This document shows positions 10,915-31,738 of a DNA stretch of 64,000 nucleotides, in pieces. Under the pieces are notes generated by a model that was given only the letters and a program-made list of their open reading frames with translations, was not told the DNA's origin and did not search any database. Source of the stretch: Verrucosispora sp. NA02020 (lineage in GTDB: Bacteria; Actinomycetota; Actinomycetes; Mycobacteriales; Micromonosporaceae); assembly GCF_013364215.1 (NCBI RefSeq), contig NZ_CP054923.1:248001-312000 (forward strand), written 5' to 3'. The translations under genes and the position numbers were made by a program. How positions within the stretch are numbered: position 1 is the stretch's first letter; every line of letters begins with the position of its first letter.

Positions 10915-11412
10915 GGCCGCAGCATGGCGTACGCCTGCGACAGTCCGTCGGCTCGGCGCGCCGTGTGGCGGAACTCGCCGTCCACAAGGGACGAAAAGCG
11001 GTGCGCCGCCGGGATCGTCGGGCATCCGGCTCCCCCTTTCGGTCAATCAATGTTCACCGTTCGACGAAGGCCGATCATCAATTTGATCGATCACTTCTCG
11101 GGTCGCACGCATCGGTTTCCGAATATCTGCCGACCGGTCGGTCCAAAACGGTCTTATCGTCGCTGAGTTCGGCGTTCGGGAATCCGCTTTCCGGCCAGCC
11201 GTCCGCAGTGGTTCGTCGCGGCGGGGTGGTCGACGGGCGCGCGGCATCGGTGACGGTGGGCCCGCATCTTGCTTGCTGTGACCCATCTCTCCTGTTAGAG
11301 TGATCGCCTCGGGAGCGCTCCCACGAAACACGCCGGTAATCGGATCCACCGCGGGGACACGTAACAGGAATATTTGTGGGCCTAATTAGTGGAATCGAAT
11401 ACAGGGAAGCAC
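10915..11412. other. Intergenic region upstream of the two-component operon
   Basis: About 500 bp of lower-GC DNA without a supported gene. It contains a 12-bp perfect palindrome CCGACCGGTCGG at 11130-11141, an AT-rich near-palindrome around ATCAATTTGAT close to 11087, and the promoter/operator listed separately at 11273-11323. The promoter of the minus-strand gene starting at 10914 must also lie here. Confidence 0.4.
11273..11323 (+). promoter_or_regulatory. Sigma-70-like promoter with CebR/CelR-like operator
   Basis: TTGCTG (11273-11278) and TAGAGT (11296-11301) are separated by 17 bp, a good housekeeping-type promoter. Just downstream, 11310-11323 reads CGGGAGCGCTCCCA, matching 13 of 14 positions of the TGGGAGCGCTCCCA box bound by the LacI-family cellobiose regulators CebR/CelR in actinomycetes. 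It would overlap the transcription start. The next gene is the kinase at 11413. Confidence 0.55.
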
Positions 11413-13169: not shown

Positions 13170-13206
13170 ACGGGCGGGACCGGCGACGGAACCGGCGGGC
13201 GGTCGC

Positions 13207-14118: not shown

Positions 14119-14347
14119 CGGCGCCCCTCGAATAGCGAAAAATTATCGATGCGTCTATTCTCGGTCAGTCGGGTGGTAATTCGGCTCCGCCAACGACGGC
14201 AGTTACGTCTACTACTTTGGTCGTAGGTCGTCTGCCCCCTTCGCGCGGTGCGTGCACCACCTCCGTAGCTACCACTACTGCGGCCCATCCCGAATGTTTA
14301 TGGTGGCCCTGCGACGCTATTTCGACGAGCGGAAGCGAACGGGGGAA

Positions 14348-15013
14348 ATGGTGCAGCAGATGATCTGGCCGGTTATGTCCGCCGAATACCGGCCGGCAGT
14401 GCCGGCCGACGCCCTGACGATCGCCGTGGTGGTCGACAACGAGGTGACCCGGCGCGGGGTGGCAGCCGTCGTGCAGCAGGTGCCGGAGGTGCGGTTACGG
14501 GCCGGTCCGGACGGGGCGGACGTGGTCATCGCCTCGCCCCGGGCGCTGAGTCGCGCCGACTCGCTGCTGGGGCACGACGACGGGCGGCAGCACAAGCTCC
14601 TCGTGCTGCTCGACGAGCCGGACCAGGTGGACATCGTGCGCTGGCTGACGCCGGACGGCTACCTCCTGGCCACGGACCTCACCCCGGAGTCCCTGCACCT
14701 GGCGTTGACGCAGGTGGCCGACGGCCAGTTGGTGGTGCCCACCGAGTTGAGCCGGCACCTGCTCAGGTTGGCGACCGGCCGGACGAGACGGGACCGCGTC
14801 CGGGCACCGGTGCTCACCGCTCGCGAGCGGGAGACGCTGGCGCTGCTCGCCGAAGGGCTGAGCAACCGGCAGATCGGCCGTCGGCTCGGTGTCTCCGAAC
14901 ACGGCGCCAAAAGGCTGGTGGGCAACATCATGACCAAACTGGACTCACCGAACCGCACGCTCGCGGTGGCGATCGCCCTGCGGGAACGGCTGATCCAGGC
15001 CGAACCGGCGTAA
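14348..15013 (+). CDS. LuxR-type regulator with degenerate receiver domain
   Basis: About 221 residues from ATG 14348. The N-terminal domain has receiver-like strands (LTIAVVVDNEVTRRGVAAVV, LLVLLDEPDQ, DGYLLATDL), but the acidic phosphorylation pocket is missing: D-N replaces the DD pair and no Asp is seen at the acceptor position. The C-terminal HTH reads LTARERETLALLAEGLSNRQIGRRL. Upstream in-frame starts exist (14252, 14294) but that DNA looks intergenic. It is a candidate pathway regulator for the neighbouring biosynthetic operon, whose last gene its 3' end overlaps by 69 bp in antisense. Confidence 0.8.
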   Translation: MVQQMIWPVMSAEYRPAVPADALTIAVVVDNEVTRRGVAAVVQQVPEVRLRAGPDGADVVIASPRALSRADSLLGHDDGRQHKLLVLLDEPDQVDIVRWLTPDGYLLATDLTPESLHLALTQVADGQLVVPTELSRHLLRLATGRTRRDRVRAPVLTARERETLALLAEGLSNRQIGRRLGVSEHGAKRLVGNIMTKLDSPNRTLAVAIALRERLIQAEPA

Positions 15014-15721
15014 CCCCGGCCAGGTCCGCACCACCACCCGGTAGTCGGCGGTCCCGGTCAACGCGACCGACGCCAGGTGCCCGTCGCCGAGCGTGAGATC
15101 CCGCACCACCCACGGACCGGGCAGACCCGTCCCACCCCGGCACCGCAGGCCGCGACCGTACGGTTGCGATCCGGCGACCCGTACCCGGAGTCCCTGCACC
15201 AGCCGCCCACCGCTGGCCTTCACGCAGGCCTCCTTGCGGGTCCAGTAGCGGAGGTACCACCAGTCCTGGGCCGGACCGCGAGCGCGGCCGACCCGGGACG
15301 CCTCGCCCGGCGGGTAGAACCGCGTCGCCAGCCGACCCACCGGTGACGGCGTGCCGTCCAGGTCCGGCCGGGCGAGACGCTCCACGTCGACCCCGACCTC
15401 CCGGCCGGTGGTGACCGCCAGCAGGGCCAGGTCGGCCGAGTGCGTCAGGTTGACCTTCGTCTCCGGCTGTCCGAGCAGCGCCGGCTTACCGTGCCGCCCC
15501 CGGTGCCAGACCACCCCCTCCGGAGGTACGCCGAGATACCCGCCGAGGATCAACCGGCTGGTGGCGTGGGCGTGGACGTAGCGGCGGCGCACCCGGGCGT
15601 CGCCGAGCCGGTCGGCCCGGCGACGCTCGTGCGGGTCCAGCAGGTCAGCCGGATCCGGATCACCGGCGAGTGGACGGCCCAGCGGAATCCGCCAGACGTG
15701 GACGACGCCGTCGAGCCGCAT
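14945..15721 (-). CDS. Sfp-type 4'-phosphopantetheinyl transferase
   Basis: A 258-residue enzyme that transfers the phosphopantetheine arm from CoA to carrier proteins. Visible family motifs are RHGKPALL (about residue 77), VNLTHSADLALLAV, GVDVERL with the Mg-binding acidic residues, and WTRKEACVKASG. It is the last gene of the minus-strand operon and would activate the two carrier proteins encoded at 20982 and 24911. The ATG at 15721 overlaps the preceding stop; GTG 15724 is an alternative. The last ~23 codons lie antisense to the LuxR gene. Confidence 0.92.
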   Translation of the reverse strand: MRLDGVVHVWRIPLGRPLAGDPDPADLLDPHERRRADRLGDARVRRRYVHAHATSRLILGGYLGVPPEGVVWHRGRHGKPALLGQPETKVNLTHSADLALLAVTTGREVGVDVERLARPDLDGTPSPVGRLATRFYPPGEASRVGRARGPAQDWWYLRYWTRKEACVKASGGRLVQGLRVRVAGSQPYGRGLRCRGGTGLPGPWVVRDLTLGDGHLASVALTGTADYRVVVRTWPGLRRFGLDQPFPQGDRHRERAVR

Positions 15722-17076
15722 CACGGTGCTCCGGTGGCCGCCAGGACCCGTTCCTGCGCCGCCACCGTCACCAGCAACTCCTCGATCTCCCGCAGGATCC
15801 CGGCGGCGTCGTCGCGGCTGAGCCGGGCGGTGTCGGCCCGTACGGTCAGCTCCAGCCGGTCCGGCCCGTCCTCGATGACCTTGAGGAAGAAGGTCAGCTC
15901 GTCCACCTCGTACCCGGTGCCGAAGGTGAGTCGGCCGGTCGCCTGCGCGGCACGCAGCCGCTCGGCGGTCACCTCCTCGATCGGGCCCGTGTCCGGCCCG
16001 GCCTGTCGCAGGTCGTTGAAGTAGCAGGACGGGTCGGCGGTGGCGGCCAGCGTGCCGCGCAACGCGCTGATCGCCTGCCGGTCACTGATGCCGCTGCGGT
16101 ACGCCTTCATGGCCGTACCCCAGCAGCTCTTGACCAGCACGGCGAAGTCCTCGGCGGAGACGTCGATCGTGGCCGGCACGTCCTGCACCAGGTTGCCGAC
16201 GTAGCCCCGCAGCTCCGCCCGGTGCCGGTTGCCGGCGATCAGGGTCATCGGCACCCGGTCGTGGCCGGTACGCCGGCCGAGGACCTTCGCGGTGGCCGTG
16301 AGCAGCACGACGGAGCTGCCCGTGGCGTACCGGGTGGCGATGGCGTCCAGGGCCAGCTTGACCGCGCTGGTGCTGAGCGTCGCGACGGCGTACCGGGGGG
16401 ACTCCGGCTCCCGAGGGGTGAAGATCGCCGGTGGGGCGGTCGCCAGTTGCTCCCGCCAGTGGGCCAACGATCGTTCCTGGACCCGGCGCCCCGGTTCGCT
16501 CTGCTCGAACTCGGCCAACTCGACCGGCTGCATCGCGGGCGGCGGCAGTTCCTCGCCGGCCAGCAGCCGGGCCAGTTCGGCACCGATCACCCGGGTGCCC
16601 AGGTAGTCGGTGGCCGCGTGGGACACACAGGTGATCACCACTCGGGGTGCGCCGTCCAGCACACCGACGGCGGGCCGGATCGGCCACTGGGTCGTGTGGT
16701 CGAACCGGTGCCCCCGGACCTGTGCCTCCAGGTCGTCGACGAGCGCCCGTGGATCGGGATCCTCGGCGGTGGCCTCGCAGATCTCCACCGGCAGTTCCCC
16801 GGCGGCCATCACCTGCTGCATCAGGTCCCCGGCCGGATCGCGGTGGAAGAGGGTGCGCAGCGCCTCGTGCCGGCGGACCAGGGCGCCCAGCGCGGCGAGC
16901 ACGCCCGGCAGGTCCACCCCCTCGGGCACCGGGGTGAAGACCGTCGAGTTGTAGAAGGAGGTGTCCGGCATCTGCCGGTCGATGTCCACCCAGATGCTGC
17001 GCTGTCCCAGGGTGGCGGGGGCGAGTACGCCCCGCTCGCCGTCGATGCGTACCGCCTGCCGGGTCATTCGCGCCAT
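15721..17076 (-). CDS. Free-standing NRPS-type condensation domain protein
   Basis: A 451-residue protein covering one condensation domain and nothing else. The N terminus reads LGQRSIWVDIDRQMPDTSFYN, and the active-site region reads VITCVSHAATDYLGT: the second His (153) and Asp157 of HHxxxDG remain, the first His is Ser152 and the Gly is Tyr158. Such proteins form amide or ester bonds between carrier-bound acyl and amino groups. ATG 17076 has a strong AAGGAGG site and overlaps the MATE gene by 13 bp. It may join the fatty acyl-carrier and amine-carrier units made by this operon (inference). Confidence 0.8.
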   Translation of the reverse strand: MARMTRQAVRIDGERGVLAPATLGQRSIWVDIDRQMPDTSFYNSTVFTPVPEGVDLPGVLAALGALVRRHEALRTLFHRDPAGDLMQQVMAAGELPVEICEATAEDPDPRALVDDLEAQVRGHRFDHTTQWPIRPAVGVLDGAPRVVITCVSHAATDYLGTRVIGAELARLLAGEELPPPAMQPVELAEFEQSEPGRRVQERSLAHWREQLATAPPAIFTPREPESPRYAVATLSTSAVKLALDAIATRYATGSSVVLLTATAKVLGRRTGHDRVPMTLIAGNRHRAELRGYVGNLVQDVPATIDVSAEDFAVLVKSCWGTAMKAYRSGISDRQAISALRGTLAATADPSCYFNDLRQAGPDTGPIEEVTAERLRAAQATGRLTFGTGYEVDELTFFLKVIEDGPDRLELTVRADTARLSRDDAAGILREIEELLVTVAAQERVLAATGAP

Positions 17077-18422
17077 GCCGCCGCCTCCTTCTCGTCCTGG
17101 TCGTGGTCGGTGGTCTCCGGGGTCGGGGTGCCCGCTCGTCGGCGGACGAAGAGGACGGTGGCGAACACGGCGGCGATGCCGAACAGGTTGGCGATCGCGA
17201 TCGTCCAGTACAGCGGCTCCGGCCCACCGGCGGACCGGGCCAGGTAGCCGCCGACCGCCACGATGCCGCCGAAGTAGACGACGTTCAGGGCGATCGCGAG
17301 TGGCCCGCCGCCGACCTGCTCCAGCACGGTGAGCGCGGCGAGGACCAGGCCCATCAGCACGAAGGTGGGTGCGACGATGCCGAGGTAGCGGGACGCCTCG
17401 GCGGCCACCGCCGGGTCGGCCGCCGTCACCCGGGCCAGCCAGTCCCGGCCGGTCCACACCACCAGCGCGCAGACCACGTAGAACGCGGCGGTCACCTGGA
17501 GGCCGGCGCGCAGCACGCCCGGCATCCGGTGGCTCTCCCCGGCGCCCCGGTACTGGTTGGCGACGATCGCGGTGGCCGCGCCGATCGCCACACCGGCGAC
17601 GATCACCACGCTCTGCACCACGTACGCCACCGCGAAGCCGGACACCACGGTCGCGCCGAAGGCGCTCACCACCCAGGTCAGCGCGAAGTTGCTGGCGAAG
17701 ATCGCCACGTACGACGCGAAGACCGGCAGACCCACGCCGGCCAGCAGGCCGAACAGGTCGGGTCGCCAGGCCAGCGACGTGCCGGGCTGCCACACGCCGG
17801 TACGCCACAGCAGGTAGCCACCGAGCGCGCTGCCGACCACGCCGGACGCGGCGATGGCGATCGGCACCGACCAGAGGCCCAGGCCCAGACCGCCGGGCAG
17901 GCCGAGCGCGGCCACGCCGACGATCTCCACGGCGGCGGCGGCGAGGAGTACCGCCGCTCCCTCCCGGGGGCGTCCCGCGCCCCGCAGGGTGGCTCCGCAG
18001 AGCACCGACCCGAGCCCGAGCAGCGCGGCCAGGCAGACCCACCGGACGAACCACACGAAGTCGCTCTGCGCCCCCGGGTCGACCCCGAACAACTGACCCA
18101 TCCCGGGTGCGGCGAGTCCGAGCAGCAGCAGCACCACGACCGACGCCACGGCGCCGATCCGGGCGAACCCGGCCAGCGCCCGGATGCGGCTCCCGGCGTC
18201 GTCGCCGCTGAGCGCCGACGCGACCTGGTTCGGTACGGCGAGCCCGGCGTGCAGGGCGATGATCACGAACATGATCGGGGTGAACAGCGAGCGGATGTAG
18301 AGCGAGTCGTCGCCCATCCGGCTCATCAGGGCGACCACCACGAGTGGGACCAGGACGCCCACCAGGTCGCCGAGAACCATCGGCGAGGCCTGGCGCAGCA
18401 CCTGGCGGCGGTACTCAGTCAT
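17064..18422 (-). CDS. MATE-family efflux transporter
   Basis: A 452-residue membrane protein with about twelve hydrophobic helices in two related halves, typical MATE length and layout (LRQASPMVLGDLVGVLVPL at the start, loop and helix repeats around residue 240). It would export the product or intermediates using an ion gradient. It overlaps the upstream acyl-CoA dehydrogenase gene by 8 bp and the downstream condensation gene by 13 bp, so it is part of the biosynthetic operon. Confidence 0.88.
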   Translation of the reverse strand: MTEYRRQVLRQASPMVLGDLVGVLVPLVVVALMSRMGDDSLYIRSLFTPIMFVIIALHAGLAVPNQVASALSGDDAGSRIRALAGFARIGAVASVVVLLLLGLAAPGMGQLFGVDPGAQSDFVWFVRWVCLAALLGLGSVLCGATLRGAGRPREGAAVLLAAAAVEIVGVAALGLPGGLGLGLWSVPIAIAASGVVGSALGGYLLWRTGVWQPGTSLAWRPDLFGLLAGVGLPVFASYVAIFASNFALTWVVSAFGATVVSGFAVAYVVQSVVIVAGVAIGAATAIVANQYRGAGESHRMPGVLRAGLQVTAAFYVVCALVVWTGRDWLARVTAADPAVAAEASRYLGIVAPTFVLMGLVLAALTVLEQVGGGPLAIALNVVYFGGIVAVGGYLARSAGGPEPLYWTIAIANLFGIAAVFATVLFVRRRAGTPTPETTDHDQDEKEAAAWRE

Positions 18423-19566
18423 CGTCGAACCTGCCCTTGGTCAGTGCGTGACAGACGGTGAGCCGCTGCACGTTGCGGGTGCCCTCCATGAACTCGACCC
18501 CCCGGGCGTCGCGGGCCAGCTTGTCCAGCCAGGGATGCGCGAACCGGGACCCCGGGCCGAGGATCCGCAACGCCTGCTGGGTGGCCTCCTCGGCGAGCTG
18601 GGCGGCCTGCGCCTTCGCGGCCGAGGCGTAGTAGCCGTTGCGGGCGTCCCGGTCCACCTCGTGAGCGGCGCGCAGGATCAGTTGGCGTGTGGTGTGTACC
18701 CGATGACCCAGCCGGTCCAGCTCGTCGCGACCCCGTCCGGACTGCGATCGAGCATACTCGATGGCGGCCCGCGCGATCCCCAACGCGATGGCGGCCACCC
18801 CGGGGCGCAGCAGGTTGAACGTCCGCAACGCACTCCACATGCCGCGTGCCGAGGCCGGCAGATGGGCGCCGAGGATCCGGCCGGGCGCCACCGGTACGCC
18901 GTCGAGGCGGATCGCGCTGATCTGCGCGCCCCGCAGGCCGACGGTGTCCAGCGCCTGGGCGTGGTAGCCGGGAGCCGACGTCTCCACCAGCACCGCGACC
19001 ACCCCGAGCGGCCCCGAGCCGGTACGCGCGAAGACCGTGCCCACCTCGGCACGGGTGGCGTTGCCGACGTACCGCTTCTCGCCGTGCAGGGTCGCCGACC
19101 CGTCCGGCGCCTTGCGGAGCTGCGTGCTCAGCGACATCGCGTCGGAGCCGCGTGCCGGCTCGGTCAGGGCGAAGAACGTCCAGGTGGGACGCGACCGCAC
19201 CCGCCCGAAATACCACTCCTGCTGGGCCTCGTCGCCGAGCATCCCGACCAGCACGCCGGAGAGCGAGGCACCCGGTGAGGCCAGGAACATCCCCGCGTCG
19301 CCGAAGGCGATCTCCTCGGCGGCGACCACCCGCTCCACGGCGGTGCTGCCGTAGTACGTGTACCTGCCGATCCGCATCGGGTCCGGTTGCAGGTGCGCCG
19401 GGATCATCGTCTTCCCGACGTAGTCGATCGCGGGCAGGTCCAGGTGCCGATAGACGGTGTCCGGGTCGCGCTCCAGGTCGAAGGCGTACGGCCGCAGCTC
19501 CGCCGCCCACTCCCGGGCGTGCTCGCGCAGTACCCGCAGCCGGTCATCCGGCTCGATGATCGCCAT
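18415..19566 (-). CDS. Acyl-CoA dehydrogenase family flavoenzyme
   Basis: A 383-residue protein of standard ACAD length: helical N-terminal domain, beta domain (FFALTEPARGSDAMSLST flavin loop near residues 130-150), and C-terminal helical domain ending ARGVEFMEGTRNVQRL, with the catalytic-base Glu in MEGT retained. It should oxidise a carrier- or CoA-bound acyl chain at the alpha-beta position. ATG 19566 has GGAG upstream. Its start overlaps by 23 bp the gene for a detached ACAD C-terminal domain, suggesting that the two are made together. Confidence 0.88.
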   Translation of the reverse strand: MAIIEPDDRLRVLREHAREWAAELRPYAFDLERDPDTVYRHLDLPAIDYVGKTMIPAHLQPDPMRIGRYTYYGSTAVERVVAAEEIAFGDAGMFLASPGASLSGVLVGMLGDEAQQEWYFGRVRSRPTWTFFALTEPARGSDAMSLSTQLRKAPDGSATLHGEKRYVGNATRAEVGTVFARTGSGPLGVVAVLVETSAPGYHAQALDTVGLRGAQISAIRLDGVPVAPGRILGAHLPASARGMWSALRTFNLLRPGVAAIALGIARAAIEYARSQSGRGRDELDRLGHRVHTTRQLILRAAHEVDRDARNGYYASAAKAQAAQLAEEATQQALRILGPGSRFAHPWLDKLARDARGVEFMEGTRNVQRLTVCHALTKGRFDDD

Positions 19567-20110
19567 GGTCAACTCCGTCGAGGTACGCGTCGGCGAGCAG
19601 TTCGGACAGGTGCGCGATCCCGCCCGGCCCGTCGGTCAGGAAGCCGCCGGCACCGAGCAGCCGCAACGACGCGCGGTCGGCGTCGGTGAGCTGGCGGTGC
19701 AGGTAGGCGGCGAGGGAGGGGTCCGGGTCGTGCTCCAGTGCGTCGAGGACCGCGGCGACGCCCTGCTGCTCGGTGACGATCTCGGCGAGGCTGCCCTGGA
19801 CCAGTTGCTGCTGGATCAGCGGCACCCCACCGGTCGTCCGGCCGGTCAGGTACTCCCTGGCCTGGTCGAGCAGCCACTGCGAGACGCCGAGCCGCATCCA
19901 GGTCAGGCCGAGCACCCACCCGGCGGGCCGGTCGTCCGTCCCACCGGAGAGGTGCTGCCACCCCGGCGGGCGCAGCCCGTGTCCGCGCGGCCCGTGCACC
20001 GTCTCCGGTGCGCCGGTCGCGGTCAGCAACGCCGTCCAGCCCGCCACCAGGCCGTCCCGGCGGGCCACCGTCCGACAGTGGGCCAGCGTGACCACCGCCT
20101 GCGCGGTCAC
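19544..20110 (-). CDS. Stand-alone ACAD C-terminal-domain-like protein
   Basis: A 188-residue protein that looks like only the C-terminal helical domain of an acyl-CoA dehydrogenase. The pattern LGVSQWLLDQAREYLTGRTTGG...PLIQQQLVQGSLAEIVTE...LLGAGGFLTD matches the family's ALDxAxxYLxxR / QxVQxxLA / LLGGxGY signature. There is no N-terminal or beta domain, and the EGT catalytic stretch is absent (HLSELLADAYL). GTG 20110 forms a GTGA overlap with the gene before it. It may pair with the ACAD encoded next (18415-19566) or bind substrate without catalysis. Confidence 0.6.
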   Translation of the reverse strand: MTAQAVVTLAHCRTVARRDGLVAGWTALLTATGAPETVHGPRGHGLRPPGWQHLSGGTDDRPAGWVLGLTWMRLGVSQWLLDQAREYLTGRTTGGVPLIQQQLVQGSLAEIVTEQQGVAAVLDALEHDPDPSLAAYLHRQLTDADRASLRLLGAGGFLTDGPGGIAHLSELLADAYLDGVDHGDHRAG

Positions 20111-20979
20111 CACGTCGGGTCCCAGGCGAGCACGGTGAGGTAGCGCAGCACCGGGTCGTACTCGGCCAGCACGGTCCGGCCGGTGAGCTGCCGGGCGGTG
20201 GTCCAGATCCCGGTGCAGAGCGTGCCCCGCCCCACCCGGTGCACCCGCTCGGCCCGCAGCGCGACCTCGGCGGTGACCGGCACGTCGTAGCCGGCCACCA
20301 GCGCGAACGGCCGACCGTCGCGGGCCGAGATCTCGTCCAGGACGTCGACCAGCAGCGCCGCTGCCGCCGCCGGGTCGACCTCGGTGCGCTGACCGAGCAG
20401 CACGCCGGTCTCGCCGGGCGCGGTCGGTCGGAAGGCGTACGCCACCGCGACGTCCTCGGCCGGCACCCGCTCGGTCGCGTCCACCTCCCAGGGCAGGTTG
20501 CGCTGGTCGAGGACGACAAGGGCGGTACGCGCGTCGGCTGCCGCGTCGCGCAGGTGGTCGGCGGCCAGCCGCAGCGCGGTGAACGGCGCGGTGACGCCCT
20601 GGTCGCTGACGCAGAACACGGTCGGGCGACCGGGTGCCGCCTCGACCAGGTAGCACCCGGCCGAGGCCCGGGAGTCGATGTCCGGGGTGGCGAACGCGAG
20701 GACGATCCGGCGCAGCGTGTCCACGCCCGGGGTCAGCTCGGCCACCACCGTCGACGCCATCGTCGTGTACGAGGTGACCTGGGCCTTGGCGAGGAACTCC
20801 GGGTCGTAGGAGCGGCCGTAGGCGCCCACCATGTCGGCGAGGTAGCGGTCCAGGCCGTCGTCCTCGATCGGCCCGTTGCCGCGGAAGGTGCGGGCGGCGG
20901 ACGCCGCCGGCCGGACCGGCAGCTCCCGAAGGAGGCCGGTCCGGTCGGCGGCGAGCCGTGGTGCGACTGTGGTGAACAC
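20107..20979 (-). CDS. Thiolase-fold KASIII-like protein lacking the active Cys
   Basis: A 290-residue protein, shorter than a usual KASIII (~330). The central strand-helix VFCVSDQGVTAPFTALRLAADHL lines up with the KASIII nucleophile elbow (xxACSGFxYAL), but the Cys position appears to be Thr or Val, and no clear His/Asn pair is present near the C terminus. So it is probably non-catalytic for condensation, perhaps a partner of the other KASIII-like protein in this operon (23982-24914) or an acyltransferase. GTG 20979 starts 2 bp after the carrier-protein stop. Confidence 0.6.
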   Translation of the reverse strand: MFTTVAPRLAADRTGLLRELPVRPAASAARTFRGNGPIEDDGLDRYLADMVGAYGRSYDPEFLAKAQVTSYTTMASTVVAELTPGVDTLRRIVLAFATPDIDSRASAGCYLVEAAPGRPTVFCVSDQGVTAPFTALRLAADHLRDAAADARTALVVLDQRNLPWEVDATERVPAEDVAVAYAFRPTAPGETGVLLGQRTEVDPAAAAALLVDVLDEISARDGRPFALVAGYDVPVTAEVALRAERVHRVGRGTLCTGIWTTARQLTGRTVLAEYDPVLRYLTVLAWDPTW

Positions 20980-20981
20980 GG

Positions 20982-21272
20982 TCAGCGGCTCACGTGCTCG
21001 TTGACGTACTCGGAGAGGGTGGTGACGGTCTCGAAGTGCCGCTGCTCCAGGTCGTCCGGGTCGAACTCGGCACCGAGCTCGTTCTCCAGTTCGAGCAGCA
21101 ACTCCAGCACGCTGGTCGAGTCGAGCCCGAGGTCGTCGAAGAGCCGGGTGTCCGGGGTGATGGTGGCGACGTCCCGCTTGAGGACGGCGGCGAGTGCGGT
21201 GCGGACGCTGGCCACCACGGCCTCGTCCACCACCGGCGCCGGGGGCTGACCCTGCACAATCGTCTCGGTCAT
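20982..21272 (-). CDS. Acyl/aminoacyl carrier protein, BtrI-like
   Basis: A 96-residue carrier protein. The phosphopantetheine site is Ser52 in LFDDLGLDSTSVLELLLELE, followed by the acidic helix typical of ACPs. The ATG forms an ATGA overlap with the PLP decarboxylase gene. Adjacency to an ATP-grasp ligase and a decarboxylase mirrors the butirosin genes btrI, btrJ and btrK, where glutamate is loaded on the carrier and decarboxylated to a 4-aminobutyryl thioester. Here the amino acid is not known. Confidence 0.85.
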   Translation of the reverse strand: MTETIVQGQPPAPVVDEAVVASVRTALAAVLKRDVATITPDTRLFDDLGLDSTSVLELLLELENELGAEFDPDDLEQRHFETVTTLSEYVNEHVSR

Positions 21273-23973: not shown

Positions 23974-23981
23974 CATGCCTC

Positions 23982-24914
23982 CTAGTGCTCGAAGACCATG
24001 GCGGAGAAGGTCGCGCCGAGCCCGACGGCGACCATCAGGTAGCGGTCGCCCGGCGCGAGCCGCTCCAGTTCCAGGGCCGTCTGGTAGTTGATGAAGGAGT
24101 CGGCGCAGAAGCAGTGGCCGGTCGACGCGACGTTGTCCAGCAGCACCCGGTCCACCGGGTAACCGAGCTGCTTGCACAGCCGCACCCAGGAGAGCCGGTT
24201 CACGTTGTGCGGCAGGATCAGGTCCACGTCGGAGAGCGCGACACCGGCCTGCGCCACCGCCGCCATGACCACCTCGGCCAGACCGTCCTGATAGATCGCC
24301 TCGAACTCGGCGGCCCGCGCGGCGTCCATTCGCAGACCGGCGTTGAACTGCCCGTACGTCCGGGTGGCGTAGCCCAGCAGCCGGTCGTGGTCGCCGCTGA
24401 GCCCGACCAGGACGGCGGCCGAGCCCTCGCCCATGAAGGTGGTGTTCGGGATGAGCTGCGCGGTGGGGGTGAACGCCTTCTCCCCGGCGAAGACCAGGGC
24501 CAACGCGTCCGGGTCCCCGTCGGCGGCCAGCAGCTCACCGGCGAGGTGCACGGCGAGCAGCCCCGACGCGCAGGCGTGCTGGGTGACCGCGAACGAGACC
24601 GCGTGCTCCAGGCCGAGCGCGGTGCGGACCTGGTGCAGCGGGTTCTCCGGGTACGGCGCCACGGTCTGCAACGTGCGGGCCTGGAGCACGTACCGGACCT
24701 GGCTCTCGCGTCCGGTCAGCGCGGTCAGCTTGCCGGCCGCGTTGATCATCATCTGGGTCAGGTCGCCGTCCGGGTCGTAGCGCACCTCGGACAGGCCGTA
24801 GAAGCGGCGGAACGTCGCCACCTGCTTCGGGTCCATCGCCAGTCGGGCACCGATCTCCTCGATCGGTACGACCGCCGACGGAAGATAGGCGGAGACCGCC
24901 TCGATGGACGTCAC
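23982..24914 (-). CDS. 3-oxoacyl-ACP synthase III-like enzyme with altered triad
   Basis: A 310-residue KASIII-family protein. Cys115 sits in TQHACASGLLAVHLA, His236 in LPHNVNRLSW, and the usual Asn of GNTS is replaced: the segment reads ASTGHCFCADSFINY (His267). Such Cys-His-X triads occur in KASIII relatives that transfer acyl groups to O or N or use unusual substrates. GTG 24914 overlaps the carrier-protein gene by 4 bp. It could extend or transfer the acyl chain held on the carrier encoded next to it. Confidence 0.82.
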   Translation of the reverse strand: MTSIEAVSAYLPSAVVPIEEIGARLAMDPKQVATFRRFYGLSEVRYDPDGDLTQMMINAAGKLTALTGRESQVRYVLQARTLQTVAPYPENPLHQVRTALGLEHAVSFAVTQHACASGLLAVHLAGELLAADGDPDALALVFAGEKAFTPTAQLIPNTTFMGEGSAAVLVGLSGDHDRLLGYATRTYGQFNAGLRMDAARAAEFEAIYQDGLAEVVMAAVAQAGVALSDVDLILPHNVNRLSWVRLCKQLGYPVDRVLLDNVASTGHCFCADSFINYQTALELERLAPGDRYLMVAVGLGATFSAMVFEH

Positions 24915-25189
24915 CGGGCACCCGCGGGTTGTTGTCCGGCGATCAGTTCGGTCAGGTGCGCGGTCAGCTCGTCGATGGTCGGGTGGTCCCAGACCAGGGT
25001 CTCGCTGAGCCGCATGTCCAGGTGCGTCTCGATGTCGCCGCAGAGAGCGAGCGCATAGACCGAGTCCAGGCCGTACTCGGCGAGGCGGACGGTGGGGTCG
25101 ATCTCGTCCTCGGGCCGGCGCAGGTACTCCGCGACGCAGCGGGTCAACCAGGAACGCAGGTCGCCCGCGCCCTCGGCGGTGGATGCCAT
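24911..25189 (-). CDS. Acyl carrier protein (second, FAAL/ACAD-associated)
   Basis: A 92-residue carrier protein with the pantetheine Ser43 in LAEYGLDSVYALALC. I prefer ATG 25189, which has AGGAAGGA upstream; an in-frame ATG at 25240 would overlap the dehydrogenase stop (ATGA) and add 17 residues. It lies between two dehydrogenase genes and the KASIII-like gene and is the most likely acceptor of the fatty acyl adenylate made by the ligase at 28553. Confidence 0.85.
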   Translation of the reverse strand: MASTAEGAGDLRSWLTRCVAEYLRRPEDEIDPTVRLAEYGLDSVYALALCGDIETHLDMRLSETLVWDHPTIDELTAHLTELIAGQQPAGAR

Positions 25190-25236
25190 GTGGGTTTCCT
25201 TCCTCGGATGGTTGGCGGTGCGGACTGGCCTCCGGG

Positions 25237-26925
25237 TCATCCCGGCAGCGGTCGGCGGGACAGGTCGAAGCTGCGTCGCTCCGCGTGCCGGGCGGCCAGT
25301 TCCTGATAGAGCGGCTCGCGGTGGTCGCCGGCGCGGTCGTCGCCCGGACGGCCGAGGCTGCGGGCCAGCCGGTCCAGTGCCCCGGTGACCCAGGCCGGGT
25401 CGTCGTCCCGGGCCAGCCAGACGTTCAGGCAGGCCGAGGCGGCGAGCACGGTGGCGTACCGGGCGGGCAGGTCGAGCACCTCGACGCGGGCGTCCACGCC
25501 CAGGTCGGAGGGGTGCAGCGCGGCCCCCGCCTCGGCGAGGTCGCCGAGTTCGGCCGTGAACTGCCCGGCCAGCCGGCGGAGTCGCTGCTGCTCCGGCTCG
25601 TCGCCGGTGAGCCGGTCCACGGCCGCGCCCAGCGATCCGGCCAGGCCGTCCAGCCCGCCGGCGGAGACCCTTAGCCGCGCGAACGGCAGCTCGGGCAGTT
25701 CCTCGCCGATCCGGAACAGCGCCGGGTCGGCCGGCTCCGGATGCACCCAGCCGCGCCGCGCCAGCAGCGGCACCTGGGGAAGCATGGTGCCCAGGCAGGC
25801 GACACGGGCGGCGTGCCCGAACCCGGCCGGGGCCAGGTCGCGCAGCAGCTTCTGGAAGATCGCGTACCGGCCCTCGCGCAGGTAGAAGTGCGCCCCGAGC
25901 ACCAGGGAGAGCTGGTGCATCGCGTCCATCAGCCGCTTGCCCACCAGGTACTTCACGGCGGAGGCGTACATGCTGGTCTGGCCGGGCAGCAGGTGCAGCG
26001 CGCGGGCCGCGACCAGGCCGAGGCTGTCGCAGATCAGCAGATCCAGGTACGCGTCGACGAGCAGCCGCCGGACCTCGGGCTGGTCGGCGACGCGGTGGCC
26101 GTAGAGACGCCGGTCGGCGGCGAAGTCCATGGTCGACCGCAGACCCGAGTCGAGGACACCGGCGAGCATGCTGGGGATCGCGGTGCGGGTGAGCTGGAAC
26201 GAGCGCAGCGCGGTCTCGATGCCCTGACCGGGCCGACCCACCACCGCCTCGTCGTCCACCGGGCAGTCGGTGAACTCGATGCCGCCCAACTGCACGCCGC
26301 GCATGCCCACGCTCGGGTAGCGGGCCAGGTCACGCATCACGCCGTCCGGCAGCGTCTGCTTGTCGACCAGGATCTGCGAGTGGCTGCGGCTGCCCGGCCG
26401 CTCGTCGGTGCGGGCCAGCAGCACCAGCCCCCGTGCCCGCGTGACGTTGGTGACCACCTCCTTGCGTCCGGTCAGCCGCCACCCGCCGGTCGTGCCCGGC
26501 CGGGCCGCGAACTCGGCGCGGGAGAAGTCGTTGCCGTGCGCCAGTTCGTGGTAGGCCGAGGCGATCTTCTGGTTGGAGAGCAGCGTGTCGGCCACCCATC
26601 GGGTCTGCGTCGGTGAGCCGGCGGCCCAGACGTTGACCGACGAGATGAACGAGCTGACGCCGTAGCCGAGCCCCAGCGACGGGTCCCGCCGGAACACCGT
26701 CCGCAGCACCTGGATCAGGTCGTCGGCCCCGGCCAGCCGCCCGCCGTGGCGGCGTGGCACGAACTCGGCGTTGAGGCAGTACGCGTCGAGGGCGCGCTCG
26801 GCGGCGCCGAACACCTCGTCCTTCTCGTCGGCCACCAGCGCGGCCGTGCCGCCGAGCGGGTTGCCGTCGTCGGACGGGTCGCCGAGCAGGTGTTCCAGCT
26901 CGTCCAGCCGGGCGGGGGCCGTCAT
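25237..26925 (-). CDS. Large acyl-CoA dehydrogenase-like protein (562 aa)
   Basis: An ACAD-family protein with an extra ~170-residue C-terminal helical extension. The flavin-loop region reads ASAYHELAHGNDFSRAEFA (a variant of the usual T-E-P-x-x-G-S), then the central helix VLDSGLRSTMDFAADRRLYGHRVADQPEV. The C-terminal position that normally holds the catalytic Glu (EGT) reads AGFGHAARVA, so the base must be elsewhere or absent. ATG 26925 overlaps the upstream ACAD stop (ATGA). It probably acts on a carrier-bound chain together with its neighbour. Confidence 0.78.
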   Translation of the reverse strand: MTAPARLDELEHLLGDPSDDGNPLGGTAALVADEKDEVFGAAERALDAYCLNAEFVPRRHGGRLAGADDLIQVLRTVFRRDPSLGLGYGVSSFISSVNVWAAGSPTQTRWVADTLLSNQKIASAYHELAHGNDFSRAEFAARPGTTGGWRLTGRKEVVTNVTRARGLVLLARTDERPGSRSHSQILVDKQTLPDGVMRDLARYPSVGMRGVQLGGIEFTDCPVDDEAVVGRPGQGIETALRSFQLTRTAIPSMLAGVLDSGLRSTMDFAADRRLYGHRVADQPEVRRLLVDAYLDLLICDSLGLVAARALHLLPGQTSMYASAVKYLVGKRLMDAMHQLSLVLGAHFYLREGRYAIFQKLLRDLAPAGFGHAARVACLGTMLPQVPLLARRGWVHPEPADPALFRIGEELPELPFARLRVSAGGLDGLAGSLGAAVDRLTGDEPEQQRLRRLAGQFTAELGDLAEAGAALHPSDLGVDARVEVLDLPARYATVLAASACLNVWLARDDDPAWVTGALDRLARSLGRPGDDRAGDHREPLYQELAARHAERRSFDLSRRPLPG

Positions 26926-28556
26926 GACAGCTCCTTGAGGTCGTCGGTGAGCCGGTCGAAGGCGGCGGGGTCGGGCCGGTGACCGCCGATCCGGTCGACG
27001 ATCAGGGCCAGCGTGGCGGCCAGTTCCGGCCGGGCCGGCTCGGCGGACCACCGGTGCAGCACGGCGGCGGCGGCCAGGCACCACTCGTACCGTCGGGCCA
27101 GGTCGAACGCCTCGACGCCGGCCGTCACGCCCTGCGGCGGCAGGGCGGCCATCTCGTCGTGCAGCCGCTCGGCGGAGTCCAGGACGTACGCGGCGAGCCG
27201 CACCACGCTCTCCGGCGCCGTCGTGCGGACCTGCTCCACCAGGAAGGGCAGGCTCTGCACCAGGCTGCATCCGGTGCGGGAGAACAGCTCCAGGCGACCC
27301 GGGTCGGTGGGTGCGCCGACCTCGACGCCGTGCAGCCCTGCGCCGACCTCGACGCCCCGCAGCCCGGCGACGTCCCGGACCCGTTGCCGCCAGCCGGCCA
27401 CCAGACGCGGGAACTGGGTGATCAGCGAGTGCCGGTTGACGAAGGTGTTGCCGTCGAAGATGCCCACGATGCGGTGGTCCCGCTCCAGCTTCTGGAACGC
27501 GCCGTCGGCGTACACGGTGGTCAGGAACGCGCGGGCGCCGAGCAGCTCGCCGCACCGCGCGATCGCCTCGTCGACCAGGGTCGGCGCCAGCGCCTTCGCC
27601 ACCGCCGAGTAGACGCTCATCTCGCCGGTCAGCGCGCCGGCCGCCCGCCCGGCGAACAGCACCACCGACTCCGCCACCAGCGCGGCGGCGGAGATCTCCC
27701 CGAAGCTGCGCCGCACGTGCGGCAACTCGATCAGCCGACGACCGTAGAGCTCCCGCTCCCGCACGAACCGCAGGGTCAGCTCCCGGGCGTGGTCGACGGC
27801 GCCGAGCGAGAGCCCGGCCGCCATCACCCGGGTCAACTGGAGCGCCTTGAGCACGATCTCCAGGCCCGCACCGGGCCGCCCGACCAGCGCCTCGGGCGGC
27901 ACCACCGCACCGTCGAAGGCGAGGCCGCTGATGTCCGCGCCCCGGATGCCGTGCGTACGCGCCTTCGGCAACGTCCGGTAGCTGCCCGGGGCGAGCCGGT
28001 CCTTGTCGACCAGGAACAGGCTGTGGCCGCGTGCCCCGGCGTCGGCCGAGGTGCGGGCGAGCACGCAGACCGTCCCGGCCCGGGTGGCGTTGTTGATCGG
28101 CCACTTCTCGCCGTCCAGGCGGTACCCGTCCGGGCACTCGGTGGCGGTCAGCTCGCCGGCCACCAGGTCGCTGCCGTGCCCGCGCTCGGTCAGCGCCCAG
28201 GAGACCACCGCACCGGCCCGGATCCGCGCCCCGAGCCGCTCGGCCCGTTCCGGGTCACCGGCCACCCAGACGCAGACCGCGCCCAGGTAGGTCTTGGCGT
28301 GCGCGATCGCGGCGGTCAGGTCGTGCCGGGCGATCGTCCGGACCACCTCGACGAGCTGCGTGTGATCGGTCGACGCGCCGCCGAAGCGCGCCGGCACGTA
28401 CCAGTCGGGAACCCCCAGCTCGTCCAGCAGACGTACGGCGTCGGTGGGGAACGTCTCGGTCCGGTCCAGCTCGGCGACCCGGTCCGGGCGGAACGGCTCG
28501 GCCGTGGCCAGGGCGGCGTCCAGCAGGCCCGGCGAGATGGTGGTGACGGCGCTCAT
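26922..28556 (-). CDS. Large acyl-CoA dehydrogenase-like protein (544 aa)
   Basis: An ACAD-family protein paired with the 562-residue one. The N-terminal domain is followed by VVSWALTERGHGSDLVAGE (flavin loop with conserved T-E-x-x-x-G-S-D), then helices VDHARELTLRFVRERELYGRRLIELPHVRRS. At the usual catalytic-Glu site it reads VGIFDGNTFVN, so Glu is replaced by Asp. A ~150-residue C-terminal extension resembles that of its neighbour. The start overlaps the fatty acyl-AMP ligase stop (ATGA). Likely role: desaturation of the acyl-carrier, possibly as a heteromer with the 25237-26925 product. Confidence 0.8.
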   Translation of the reverse strand: MSAVTTISPGLLDAALATAEPFRPDRVAELDRTETFPTDAVRLLDELGVPDWYVPARFGGASTDHTQLVEVVRTIARHDLTAAIAHAKTYLGAVCVWVAGDPERAERLGARIRAGAVVSWALTERGHGSDLVAGELTATECPDGYRLDGEKWPINNATRAGTVCVLARTSADAGARGHSLFLVDKDRLAPGSYRTLPKARTHGIRGADISGLAFDGAVVPPEALVGRPGAGLEIVLKALQLTRVMAAGLSLGAVDHARELTLRFVRERELYGRRLIELPHVRRSFGEISAAALVAESVVLFAGRAAGALTGEMSVYSAVAKALAPTLVDEAIARCGELLGARAFLTTVYADGAFQKLERDHRIVGIFDGNTFVNRHSLITQFPRLVAGWRQRVRDVAGLRGVEVGAGLHGVEVGAPTDPGRLELFSRTGCSLVQSLPFLVEQVRTTAPESVVRLAAYVLDSAERLHDEMAALPPQGVTAGVEAFDLARRYEWCLAAAAVLHRWSAEPARPELAATLALIVDRIGGHRPDPAAFDRLTDDLKELS

Positions 28557-30325
28557 CGGGCCACCCCGGCCAGCTCACGATCCCGGTCGGTGGCGTCCAG
28601 GTGGGAGCGGACCTCCGGGGTGAGGTCGGCGTACGTGCCGGTGAGCGAGCCCTCCTGGAAGGCGCGACGGACCGCGACCCGCTGGATCTTGCCGCTGGTG
28701 GTCCGGGACACCCCGCCCGGGCGGACCAGCAGCACGCTCGCCTCCACGCCGAACTCGCGGGACAACCGGTGCCGCACCGCCGCCGAGATCCGGGCCAGCT
28801 CCTCCGGCGTCGCCCGGCCGGCCCGTACCTCGTGCACCAGGACCACCTGCTCCTCGGGCACCGGCACGCTGAACGCGGCTCCGACACCGAGCGCCAGCGC
28901 GGGATGCACGGTGCGCGCCTCGGCCTCCAGGTCCTGCGGATACAGGTTGCGGCCCCGGATGATCAGCAGCTCCTTGATCCGCCCGGAGATGTACAGCTCG
29001 TCGTCGAGGCGTACCCCGAGGTCGCCGGTGCGCAGGAAACCGCGCTCGCCACAGGCGGTCTCCGCGTCGAAGACGGCGGCCGTGGCCTCGGGGTTCTCCC
29101 AGTACCCGCGCGCGACGCTCGGTCCGCGCAGCCAGATCTCGCCCACCTCACCGTCGGGGAGCAGCACGTGGCGCTCCGGGTCGACGATGCGGATGTCCAT
29201 CTCGGACGTCGCGCCGCAGCCGACCAGGTCACGGGTGGCCTCGTCGGTGTCCGGCCCGACCGGTCGGGCCTGCCCCCGGCTTAGGTGCGCGGCGTCGACC
29301 CGGGTGATGCGGGGAAGCCGGTACTGCCCGACGCAGGAGACCGCAAGCGTCGCCTCGGCCAGCCCATAGCCGGGGCCGACCGCCTCCGGCCGCAGGCCGT
29401 AGGGCGCGAACCGGTCGCGGAAGCGGGCCAGCGTGCTCGCCTGGACCGGCTCGGCGCCGTTGACCGCGACCCGCCAACGGGACAGGTCCAGGCCGGCGAG
29501 CCTCTCCTCGGCGATCCGGTTCAGGCACATCTCGTAGGCGAAGTTGGGTGCCGGGGAGATCTGCACGTCGAAGCGGTCCACCAGGAACAACCAGCTCTGC
29601 GGGTGCCGCAGGAACACCGAGGCGGGCATGTGCACGGTGGTGCTGCCGACGTACAGCGGGGAGAGGAAGAGCCCGATCAGGCCGAAGTCGTGGTGCATCG
29701 GCAGCCAGCCGCCGTGCCGGGCGTCCGACGGCGCGCCGAGGATGCGCTGGTAGACCCCGGCGTTGTCGGCCAGGTTGCCGTGCGTCACCACGACGCCCCG
29801 GGGCTGGCTGGTGGACCCGGAGGTGTACTGGAGGAAGGCGATCCGGTCCGGGTCGTCGGGCAGGGCACGGAACTGTCCGACGTCGGGCAGCGCGGTCGCG
29901 TCGGTCACCAGACGCGGCAGGTCGCCCACCCCGGCCGCCTCCGCCCAGGTGGCCACGTCACCGGCCACCCGCTCCTCGGTGAGCAGGGCGGCGGCCCGCG
30001 CGTTGCGGACGATCGCGGTGAGCCGCTGGCTGCGGTGCTGCTGCCCGTCCGGCACCGGCACCACGATCGGGATCACGCCGGAGTACAGGCAGCCGAGGAC
30101 GGCGAGGGCCAACTGCGGGCCCGGCGGATAGAGCAGCATCGCCCGGTCGCCGGCGGCCAGCCGGTCCTGGAACAGCGCGCCGACCCGGCGGGCCGCGTCG
30201 TGGATCTGGGCGTACGAGTAGCTGATCGGGGCGTCGTCACGCATCGGGTCGGCCACGTAGGTGAACGCGGTCCGCTCGCCGAACTGCGCGACGTTGACCT
30301 CCATCCGGGCACTGAAGCTGGTCAC
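28553..30325 (-). CDS. Fatty acyl-AMP ligase (FAAL-type adenylating enzyme)
   Basis: A 590-residue ANL-superfamily enzyme. It has the AMP-binding P-loop LQYTSGSTSQPRGVVVTHGN, the FAAL-style start (FGERTAFTYV, ISYSYAQIHDAARRVGALF), WLPMHHDFGLIG, VNGAEPV, GPGYGLAEATLAVS and the hinge region GRIKELLIIRGRNLYPQDLE. It would activate a free fatty acid as the adenylate and pass it to a carrier protein. GTG 30325 overlaps the ferredoxin stop by 4 bp. It is the entry enzyme that supplies the acyl chain of this pathway. Confidence 0.9.
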   Translation of the reverse strand: MTSFSARMEVNVAQFGERTAFTYVADPMRDDAPISYSYAQIHDAARRVGALFQDRLAAGDRAMLLYPPGPQLALAVLGCLYSGVIPIVVPVPDGQQHRSQRLTAIVRNARAAALLTEERVAGDVATWAEAAGVGDLPRLVTDATALPDVGQFRALPDDPDRIAFLQYTSGSTSQPRGVVVTHGNLADNAGVYQRILGAPSDARHGGWLPMHHDFGLIGLFLSPLYVGSTTVHMPASVFLRHPQSWLFLVDRFDVQISPAPNFAYEMCLNRIAEERLAGLDLSRWRVAVNGAEPVQASTLARFRDRFAPYGLRPEAVGPGYGLAEATLAVSCVGQYRLPRITRVDAAHLSRGQARPVGPDTDEATRDLVGCGATSEMDIRIVDPERHVLLPDGEVGEIWLRGPSVARGYWENPEATAAVFDAETACGERGFLRTGDLGVRLDDELYISGRIKELLIIRGRNLYPQDLEAEARTVHPALALGVGAAFSVPVPEEQVVLVHEVRAGRATPEELARISAAVRHRLSREFGVEASVLLVRPGGVSRTTSGKIQRVAVRRAFQEGSLTGTYADLTPEVRSHLDATDRDRELAGVAR

Positions 30326-30540
30326 CGTTCACGCTCCTGCTGAGTCGTCTGAATCGAGATCGCTCGGTTGGGGCACAGGTGTGCGGCCTCCCGCACGGCC
30401 GGGACCCGGTCCGGCTCCGGCTCGGCCACCAGCAGCACGACCGTCCCGTGGTCGTCCTCGTCGAACACCTCCGGCGCGAGCCGGACGCAGTGCCCGGCGC
30501 CGAGACAGCGCTCCGCCGCGACGGTGAGCAGGACCGTCAT
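30322..30540 (-). CDS. [3Fe-4S]-type ferredoxin, P450 partner
   Basis: A 72-residue ferredoxin. RCLGAGHCVRLAPEVFD gives Cys12 and Cys18, and AHLCPNRAI gives the third Cys near residue 56, the three-Cys pattern of actinobacterial [3Fe-4S] ferredoxins that deliver electrons to cytochromes P450. It starts 4 bp after the P450 stop and overlaps the ligase gene by 4 bp. Confidence 0.92.
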   Translation of the reverse strand: MTVLLTVAAERCLGAGHCVRLAPEVFDEDDHGTVVLLVAEPEPDRVPAVREAAHLCPNRAISIQTTQQERER

Positions 30541-30544
30541 CGGG

Positions 30545-31738
30545 TCACCACCGCACCGGCAGCCGGCCGAGCCCGAACACCACGCCCTGCTTGACCGGGA
30601 CCTGCTCGACCGGTACGGCCAGGTGCAGCCCCGGGATCCGGGTGAACAGCGCCCGCAGCGCGATCAGCAGCTCCAGCCGTCCCAGGTGCTGGCCGACGCA
30701 CTGGTGGATGCCGAAGCCGAAGGTCAGGTGACCGCGTGCCGCCCGCCGTACGTCCAGCACGTCGGGGTCCGCGAACCGTTCCGCATCCCGGTTGGCCCCG
30801 GGGAGCAGCAGCACGATGCCCTCCCCGGCCCGGATCAGCTCGCCGTCCACCTCCAGGTCGGCGGTGGCGACGCGGACCGTGGCACCGGTGAGCGACAGGT
30901 ACCGCAGCAGCTCCTCGACCGCGTCCGGCCACCGCTCCGGCTCGGCCCGCAACAGGTCGAGCTGGGTACGCTCGGTGAGCAGAGTGAGCACGCTCATGCC
31001 CAGCGTGTTGACGGTGATGTCCTGTCCGGCGAGCACGATGGCGATGCCGAGGCCGGTCGCCTCCTCGACGGTCAGCTCGCCCTCGTCGATCCGCTCGACC
31101 AGATCCCGCAACTGGCCGTCCCGCAGCGTGTCCCGACCCTCGGTGAGCAGGTGGGTCAGGTAGCCGGTCATCGACCGGACCGGATTGAACCGCTTGTAGG
31201 TCACCGTCTGGAAGTGCGCGACGTCCGCCTCCGGCACCCCGAGCAGCCGACCCAGGACCTCCGCGACCAGCGGCTTGGCGAACACGTCGAGCAGGTCCAC
31301 CGGCGGCGACTCGGCCAGCATCCGGTCCAGGTAGGCGTCGGTGTACCGGACGATCTCCGGTTCCCAGGCGCTGATCCGCTTGTAGGTCAGGCTGGGCAGC
31401 ACCGCCCGCCGCTGCCGCGAGTGCGCCGGCGGATCGGTCCGCAGCAACGCCTCGATGGTCGCCGAACCGCTCTGCCGCAGCCCCGCCATGCCGGGCACCG
31501 GCACCGGCATGGCCGGCTGCCGGACGTCCACACTGGTGTCCGGGCTGGCCAGGATCGCCCGGGTCGCCGCGTACCCGGTGACGACCCAGACCGGACGGCC
31601 GTCGAACAGCCGCGCCCGGGTGACCGTCCCGCGCTCCCGCAGCTCCCGGTATTCCTCCGGCGGCTGGTACGGGCACTGACGCTTCAGGGGCAGCTCGGGT
31701 AGCTGCGTGATGTCTTCCGTGGCCACGGCTCTGCTCAC
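30545..31738 (-). CDS. Cytochrome P450 monooxygenase
   Basis: A 397-residue soluble bacterial P450. The heme loop is FGFGIHQCVGQHLG with Cys347 as thiolate ligand. The I-helix reads VLAGQDITVN, with Asp-Ile-Thr in place of the usual E/D-T-T. The ExxR helix fits EELLRYL. GTG 31738 has AGGGG upstream and gives a normal N terminus (VATEDITQLPELPLKRQCPYQPP); longer in-frame reading to 31813 is unlikely. It is the first gene of the operon and would hydroxylate or otherwise oxidise the acyl product. Confidence 0.93.
   Translation of the reverse strand: MSRAVATEDITQLPELPLKRQCPYQPPEEYRELRERGTVTRARLFDGRPVWVVTGYAATRAILASPDTSVDVRQPAMPVPVPGMAGLRQSGSATIEALLRTDPPAHSRQRRAVLPSLTYKRISAWEPEIVRYTDAYLDRMLAESPPVDLLDVFAKPLVAEVLGRLLGVPEADVAHFQTVTYKRFNPVRSMTGYLTHLLTEGRDTLRDGQLRDLVERIDEGELTVEEATGLGIAIVLAGQDITVNTLGMSVLTLLTERTQLDLLRAEPERWPDAVEELLRYLSLTGATVRVATADLEVDGELIRAGEGIVLLLPGANRDAERFADPDVLDVRRAARGHLTFGFGIHQCVGQHLGRLELLIALRALFTRIPGLHLAVPVEQVPVKQGVVFGLGRLPVRW

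Follow-up and report, generated by a model that had tools for sequence, protein, structure and literature searches.

The authors of the bolagladin study judged dehydro-beta-alanine to be very rare in 2020 and named the enamidonins as the sole other examples (PMC7756342). For bolagladin of Burkholderia gladioli, loading of aspartate by its beta-carboxyl group on the free acyl carrier protein (ACP) BolC was proposed, as was N-acylation by BolM or BolP, homologues of beta-ketoacyl-ACP synthase III (KASIII). The carrier-bound aspartate would be decarboxylated by the BtrK-like BolN, deletion of whose gene abolishes bolagladin and is not rescued by beta-alanine; desaturation is assigned to BolQ, an acyl-CoA dehydrogenase (ACAD), and deletion of bolQ leads to dihydro-bolagladins (PMC7756342). 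Among Streptomyces lipopeptides, autucedine and enamidonin contain dehydro-beta-alanine and two diaminopropionates, olenamidonin and autucedine having dehydro-beta-alanine plus Phe-Dpr-Dpr-Gly; olenamidonins show UV absorption near 266 nm and an enamide coupling of 14 Hz, and for autucedine a 3-oxoacyl-ACP synthase has been proposed to ligate the acyl group to dehydro-beta-alanyl-ACP (PMC11204786). In the AFC-BC11 pathway of the Burkholderia cepacia complex, AfcP decarboxylates carrier-bound aspartate in vitro, the KASIII-like AfcL hands the beta-alanyl chain to Lys-CoA, and the fatty acyl-AMP ligase (FAAL) AfcA itself acylates the beta-alanyl amine (PMC12186527). Here we compare these systems with a 16-gene operon (14945..31738, minus strand) in a 64,000-nucleotide stretch of Verrucosispora sp. 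NA02020, called the window below (G000:C1:248001-312000; host genome 7.28 Mb, 2 contigs). By analogy, the second carrier of this operon most likely holds N-acyl-dehydro-beta-alanine, joined by a pair of KASIII-type proteins and not by the free-standing condensation (C) domain that is also encoded.

All 16 genes were verified at the coordinates of a first-pass annotation of the same DNA, which had read them as a single operon with two carrier-bound branches, and Micromonospora phaseoli has the same 16 genes in identical order. They are transcribed in the order cytochrome P450, ferredoxin, FAAL, ACAD1, ACAD2, ACP1, KS1, ATP-grasp ligase (ATPg), decarboxylase (DC), ACP2, KS2, ACAD C-terminal domain (ACADC), small ACAD (ACADs), MATE transporter, C domain and 4'-phosphopantetheinyl transferase (PPTase). 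Family calls for the 16 products were made with Pfam and NCBIfam, several of the NCBIfam matches being under curated cut-offs. Seven of the genes form a cassette:

23982..24914, minus strand: KS1, KASIII-like, with Cys115, His236 and His267 (Pfam ACP_syn_III_C; FabH alignment)
22603..23973, minus strand: ATPg, ATP-grasp ligase with Pre-ATP-grasp domain (Pfam PF18604, E 2.7e-15), proposed loader of ACP2 by cassette synteny
21269..22606, minus strand: DC, BtrK-type pyridoxal phosphate-dependent decarboxylase (PDB top match)
20982..21272, minus strand: ACP2, second carrier, with Ser52 (NCBIfam ACP models)
20107..20979, minus strand: KS2, protein of KASIII fold that lacks the catalytic Cys and is proposed to pair with KS1 (structure model and fold searches)
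19544..20110, minus strand: ACADC, ACAD C-terminal domain encoded as a separate protein and proposed to pair with the small ACAD (Pfam; model and Foldseek)
18415..19566, minus strand: ACADs, small ACAD with catalytic Glu361 (Pfam)

Related loci were chosen by similarity to the ATPg of the window, and the counts are therefore not population frequencies. Public genomes gave 218 matching stretches, and the 80 best of them were used; 18 further stretches, with ATPg relatives of 44-61% identity, came from 16 other genomes in a family sample of 150, and 2 from the host genome (in that sample, 99 genomes had any ATPg match, mostly short ones to other ATP-grasp enzymes). After 19 of 99 loci had been dropped, 4 as same-genome repeats and 15 as shorter than 19 kb, 80 loci, each 19 kb or longer, remained. 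The profile map places the complete cassette in 64 of these, in 56 with the exact order on a single strand, and among the best 80 of the 218 public stretches it spans 23 actinobacterial genera by their record titles. Incomplete loci include one without DC, one with ATPg and DC only and eight with ATPg only. KS1 and KS2 occur together in all 71 KS1 loci and are both missing from the nine others; DC and ACP2 genes are adjacent in at least 62 loci (order strings). The grouping of BtrK-type decarboxylase, ATP-grasp protein and second ACP to which the first-pass annotation had drawn attention is thus a single conserved block. A protein search with KS1 returned 1379 relatives, with only generic names among the 120 listed.

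Residue conservation was counted for members of the cassette (counts refer to rows past length and score filters, repeats included). Cys115, His236 and His267 of KS1, the last standing at the Asn position of FabH, are all kept in 85/85 rows, the Ser of ACP2 in 87/87 and the Glu of ACADs in 76/76. In KS2 the column matching the catalytic Cys holds a Cys in 1/79 rows and the adjacent column in 13; this absence was read from a profile alignment whose probability is modest (76%). The predicted structure of KS2 has a KASIII fold, and the ACADC model matches the C-terminal part of ACADs in Foldseek. Searched against the PDB, DC matched BtrK with E 4.2e-94, the next family following at 9.6e-51.

The other half of the operon appears to supply the fatty acyl group:

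28553..30325, minus strand: FAAL (Pfam AMP-binding; FAAL-type NCBIfam models under cut-offs; PDB FAALs, top E 3.2e-122)
26922..28556, minus strand: ACAD1, large ACAD-like protein (Pfam)
25237..26925, minus strand: ACAD2, large ACAD-like protein (Pfam on a longer open reading frame; NCBIfam)
24911..25189, minus strand: ACP1, acyl carrier protein (Pfam PP-binding on a 109-aa form)

FAAL is the only AMP-binding match among the 16 products. Judged by gene content, this half, which the first-pass annotation had assigned to fatty-acyl loading, follows a known starter-module pattern: rotihibin has FAAL-ACAD-ACAD-ACP in the identical order (PMC8552735), and in taromycin and malacidin, with 2,4-diene chains, FAAL and ACP are likewise separated by two ACAD genes (PMC9113097). 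In those three systems, however, the ACP supplies a nonribosomal peptide synthetase (NRPS), whereas here the KASIII-type cassette comes next and no NRPS is found in the operon. By register, ACAD1 has an Asp at the usual catalytic Glu position in 17/17 rows, and ACAD2, by simple register, has no acidic residue there in 17/17.

From the observed gene content, folds, conserved residues and synteny we infer a pathway of five steps. FAAL would put a fatty acid on ACP1, where ACAD1 and ACAD2 would introduce double bonds, with a 2,4-dienoyl chain as the probable outcome. In the second step, the ATP-grasp ligase would attach L-aspartate via its side-chain carboxyl to ACP2 and the BtrK-type enzyme would strip the alpha-carboxyl to give beta-alanyl-ACP2. 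The KS1-KS2 pair would then use its cysteine to take over the acyl chain from ACP1 and N-acylate the beta-alanyl amine, and ACADs with its ACADC partner would oxidise the residue to N-acyl-dehydro-beta-alanyl-ACP2; these third and fourth steps may be interchangeable in order. Finally, and this is the weakest step, the free C domain would offload the N-acyl-dehydro-beta-alanine from ACP2 to a soluble amine or alcohol. P450 and ferredoxin might tailor the product and MATE might export it. The assignment of the ACP2 cargo draws on the conserved cassette, the bolagladin logic, the autucedine residue and sister loci with SbnA-type genes. We consider the acyl-dehydro-beta-alanyl unit, steps two to four, rather probable; the whole scheme, in which a lipid enamide is assembled without an NRPS, is put forward tentatively and with slightly more doubt than confidence. 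The idea of two carriers in the first-pass annotation holds, one in the fatty-acyl module and one in the decarboxylase/ATP-grasp block. Its view that the dehydrogenases desaturate the fatty acyl chain fits the two large ACADs, but for the small ACAD with ACADC the amino-acid portion is the most likely target of desaturation.

Several observations weigh against this pathway. The closest PDB matches of ATPg are peptide ligases (31.9 and 23 bits), and the published systems use adenylating loaders, VinN-like BolO in bolagladin (PMC7756342) and AfcQ in AFC-BC11 (PMC12186527), where the window has an ATP-grasp enzyme; Pfam found no such VinN-type loader among the 16 products. Six of the 80 loci have the first five cassette genes without ACADC and ACADs, and a C-domain match was obtained in only 12 of 28 loci with FAAL. 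Since the FAAL acylates the amine in AFC-BC11 (PMC12186527), step three may not require KS1 and KS2. In a Rahnella aceris plasmid locus the ACAD C-domain and ATP-grasp profiles had no match, and a locus of Burkholderia cenocepacia in which FAAL, a KS1-like protein and a decarboxylase were matched gave none at E 0.01 for the KS2, ACADC, small ACAD and ATP-grasp profiles.

A search of plasmids with the ATP-grasp protein gave three records and led no further. Separately, loci on plasmids of Rahnella aceris and of Tritonibacter mobilis encode KS1-, KS2-, DC-, ACP2- and ACADs-like proteins plus adenylating enzymes, and the ATPg profile matched in neither. On the Tritonibacter plasmid (L142:16001-18439) decarboxylase and ACAD are annotated as one fused polypeptide, which links the decarboxylation and ACAD steps. 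An ACADC-like protein (38 bits) is present there too, and a 'GAK system ATP-grasp enzyme', not matched by the ATP-grasp profile, is annotated roughly 9 kb upstream of the decarboxylase.

The first alternative to be weighed concerns the amino acid, for which the first-pass annotation had assumed butirosin-like chemistry. The operon resembles butirosin BtrI/BtrJ/BtrK in its carrier, its BtrK-type decarboxylase and its ATP-grasp protein, the last by fold family. Butirosin chemistry starts from glutamate and is not known to involve an ACAD or a KASIII, and its loader BtrJ belongs to the ATP-grasp class. ATPg might accordingly load glutamate via the gamma-carboxyl, leading to 4-aminobutyryl-ACP2 and, through the small ACAD, to an N-acyl-4-aminocrotonyl unit, which would suit a decarboxylase whose nearest solved structure is BtrK, an enzyme that works on a glutamyl carrier (PMC7756342). 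The published relatives with ACAD or KASIII use aspartate, however (PMC7756342, PMC12186527). Furthermore, five related loci that form a clade in the ATPg tree have genes for methylaspartate mutase E, a class-II tRNA-synthetase-like and a glutamate-synthase-like protein directly upstream of KS1 (Pfam on one member, L027); the mutase suits an aspartate-type acid but could serve an NRPS. The type of decarboxylase thus stands, whereas aspartate appears the likelier substrate and the glutamate version unlikely.

A second alternative keeps the scheme of the first-pass annotation, in which the free C domain joins the ACP1 acyl group to the ACP2 amine, leaving a C-C condensation or another step to the KASIII pair. 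The C domain does have an intact HxxxD motif (SHAATD in the alignment) both here and in M. phaseoli, KASIII enzymes mostly form C-C bonds, and the fold of KS2 also resembles the PqsBC chains. The KASIII pair is nevertheless the likelier joiner, because KS1 and KS2 always occur together in this sample whereas a C-domain match was seen in just 20 of the 71 KS1 loci (a one-sequence and hence insensitive profile, on loci of about 20 kb), and because published pathways propose KASIII homologues as N-acylators (PMC7756342, PMC11204786). We regard joining by the C domain as improbable. That KS1/KS2 merely shuttles the acyl group between carriers, with FAAL or the C domain forming the amide, is very improbable given that both proteins are retained in loci without FAAL match, even if the KASIII-family AzsD moves a group from carrier to carrier beside the ACAD AzsF (PMC10445470) and AfcA acylates the beta-alanyl amine (PMC12186527).

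Returning to the dehydro-beta-alanine pathway, the cassette is found in settings without overlap within this sample, which was recounted without the second copy in the host and three repeats as 28 KS1 loci with FAAL and 57 others (29 and 60 before). Of the 57 loci without FAAL, 19 have SbnA-type genes, 13 have SbnB-type genes and 18 have members of an NRPS-like family, whereas none of the three kinds was matched in the 28 loci with FAAL. SbnA and SbnB were verified above curated cut-offs on one representative each; the NRPS-like family was identified by eye and by weak adenylation-profile matches in six members, and the record of one relative annotates NRPS. SbnA-type genes beside the cassette would fit the diaminopropionate-containing enamidonin type. 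The two large ACADs are present in the loci of 16 relatives. A quick tree built from 95 ATPg rows places the window with M. phaseoli (SH-aLRT 99) and next with Glycomyces fuscus (96). On this tree the FAAL+ACAD setting requires six changes, at least three of them forced by well-supported branches; it therefore seems to have been gained or lost on more than one occasion.

Neighbours of the FAAL loci might hint at the acceptor. Near the 28 loci we found genes for GFO/IDH oxidoreductases (7), class-III aminotransferases (4) and inositol-phosphate synthases (3), with families checked on one representative each, and inositol monophosphatase near two. The inositol-type neighbours hint at an aminocyclitol acceptor in related FAAL loci, or may be housekeeping genes; none was seen beside the window operon in scans that took in part of the window genes. 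When a class-III aminotransferase from a related locus was searched in the host genome, 16 matches came up (top 39% identity), all of them outside the window. One further family, c24, occurs in 14 of the 28 FAAL loci and 0 of the 57 others; its sole PDB match is 2-phospho-lactate guanylyltransferase, and a search without positive control gave no match in the host genome.

Two other groups of loci were observed. Nine Amycolatopsis loci have a related ATP-grasp gene but gave no match for KS1, KS2 or the decarboxylase; the gene adjoins ACP, KS-type, SDR, SbnA/SbnB-type and NRPS-like genes. L070, L077, L111 and similar Streptomyces and Kitasatospora loci have a gene of the AICARFT/IMPCHase family (about 520 aa; Pfam on L077) just upstream of KS1, which is perhaps merely a housekeeping neighbour.

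The outer genes of the operon are as follows:

30545..31738, minus strand: cytochrome P450, 397 aa, GTG start (NCBIfam P450 models, top pentalenolactone synthase E 5.4e-50, under cut-off), shared with the M. phaseoli operon
30322..30540, minus strand: ferredoxin, 72 aa (Pfam Fer4_15, E 5.3e-11)
17064..18422, minus strand: MATE-family transporter (Pfam MatE, E 3.7e-17)
15721..17076, minus strand: free-standing C domain (Pfam Condensation, E 3.2e-22)
14945..15724, minus strand: PPTase (Pfam ACPS, E 5.4e-10)

Upstream on the same strand (31926-34973), a gene encodes roughly 1000 aa that include a FlgD Ig-like domain. Downstream (11389-15013) are genes for a histidine kinase (Pfam), a UbiA-family prenyltransferase and a plus-strand LuxR-type regulator, the last overlapping the 3' end of the PPTase gene by 69 nt. 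An exact direct duplication of 76,729 bp (G000:C1:240346-317074 and 389959-466687, 149,613 bp apart) encloses the whole window in its first copy, so that the operon is present twice in the host genome; this could be either a recent real event or an assembly artefact. A third, diverged cassette (G000:C1:2863600-2883500) has an ATP-grasp protein of 46% identity and a divergent C-domain protein, and no FAAL was matched in the profile map of that locus.

Three further system types were considered and rejected. ACP2 matches AmcB of the cispentacin-type polyketide synthases (PKS) at 34.7 bits against a cut-off of 80, and that pathway relies on a KS-CYF pair together with a 2-oxoglutarate loader (PMC10698177). 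P450 and MATE match solanimycin models far under cut-off, and that paper states dehydro-alpha-alanine (PMC10204066). Vicenistatin-type macrolactams share the decarboxylase logic (PMC11284099), but there is no PKS in the operon.

The closest likeness remains to the dehydro-beta-alanine systems. Bolagladin shares the free ACP, a BtrK-like decarboxylase, two KASIII homologues, an ACAD and the proposed N-acyl-dehydro-beta-alanyl starter (PMC7756342); in the operon, the corresponding BtrK/VinO-type decarboxylase with free ACP, KASIII homologues and ACAD with catalytic Glu were found by sequence. Bolagladin has an NRPS downstream and a fatty acid from a citrate-primed fatty acid synthase (PMC7756342), whereas the window has a FAAL-loaded fatty acid and no NRPS. 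Because ATP-grasp replaces the VinN-type loader, we set the operon outside the BolO type, as a presumed functional analogue. AFC-BC11 is alike in carrier chemistry without an NRPS C domain, FAAL, aspartate decarboxylation on a carrier and a KASIII-like acyltransferase, but differs in its three dehydro-beta-alanines, single carrier, Lys terminus and lack of any C domain (PMC12186527). With autucedine and enamidonin (PMC11204786) the operon would share the acyl chain on dehydro-beta-alanine, and sister loci of the cassette carry SbnA/SbnB and NRPS-like genes. Unlike them, the window has a FAAL, two large ACADs, a free C domain and a P450. Diaminopropionate synthases and NRPS were found neither in the 16 genes nor in the scanned window neighbours, the rest of the genome not having been searched for them. 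The earlier statement that no described cluster has this combination applies only in part: each half has been described separately, and a description of the combination was not found in the open-access literature, MIBiG not having been compared. If the proposed unit is right, the cassette would mark dehydro-beta-alanine across 23 actinobacterial genera and sort peptide-type from lipid-type users, its chemistry would become directly minable by the cassette, and an ATP-grasp route to side-chain-loaded aminoacyl carriers as well as two candidate pairs of an active with an inactive protein, one of KASIII and one of ACAD type, would be at hand. It is more speculative, and on balance doubtful, that there is a whole class of NRPS-free actinobacterial lines with ATP-grasp loading of the aspartate side chain, amide formation by a heterodimeric KASIII whose partner is dead, enamide formation by a heterodimeric ACAD whose C-domain is split off, and offloading to a small acceptor by a free C domain. 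As far as the genes predict, the operon would follow the dehydro-beta-alanine route of bolagladin and autucedine without VinN-type loader and NRPS, and what appears new relative to the described systems is the ATP-grasp loader, the independence from NRPS and the paired active and inactive KASIII and ACAD proteins.

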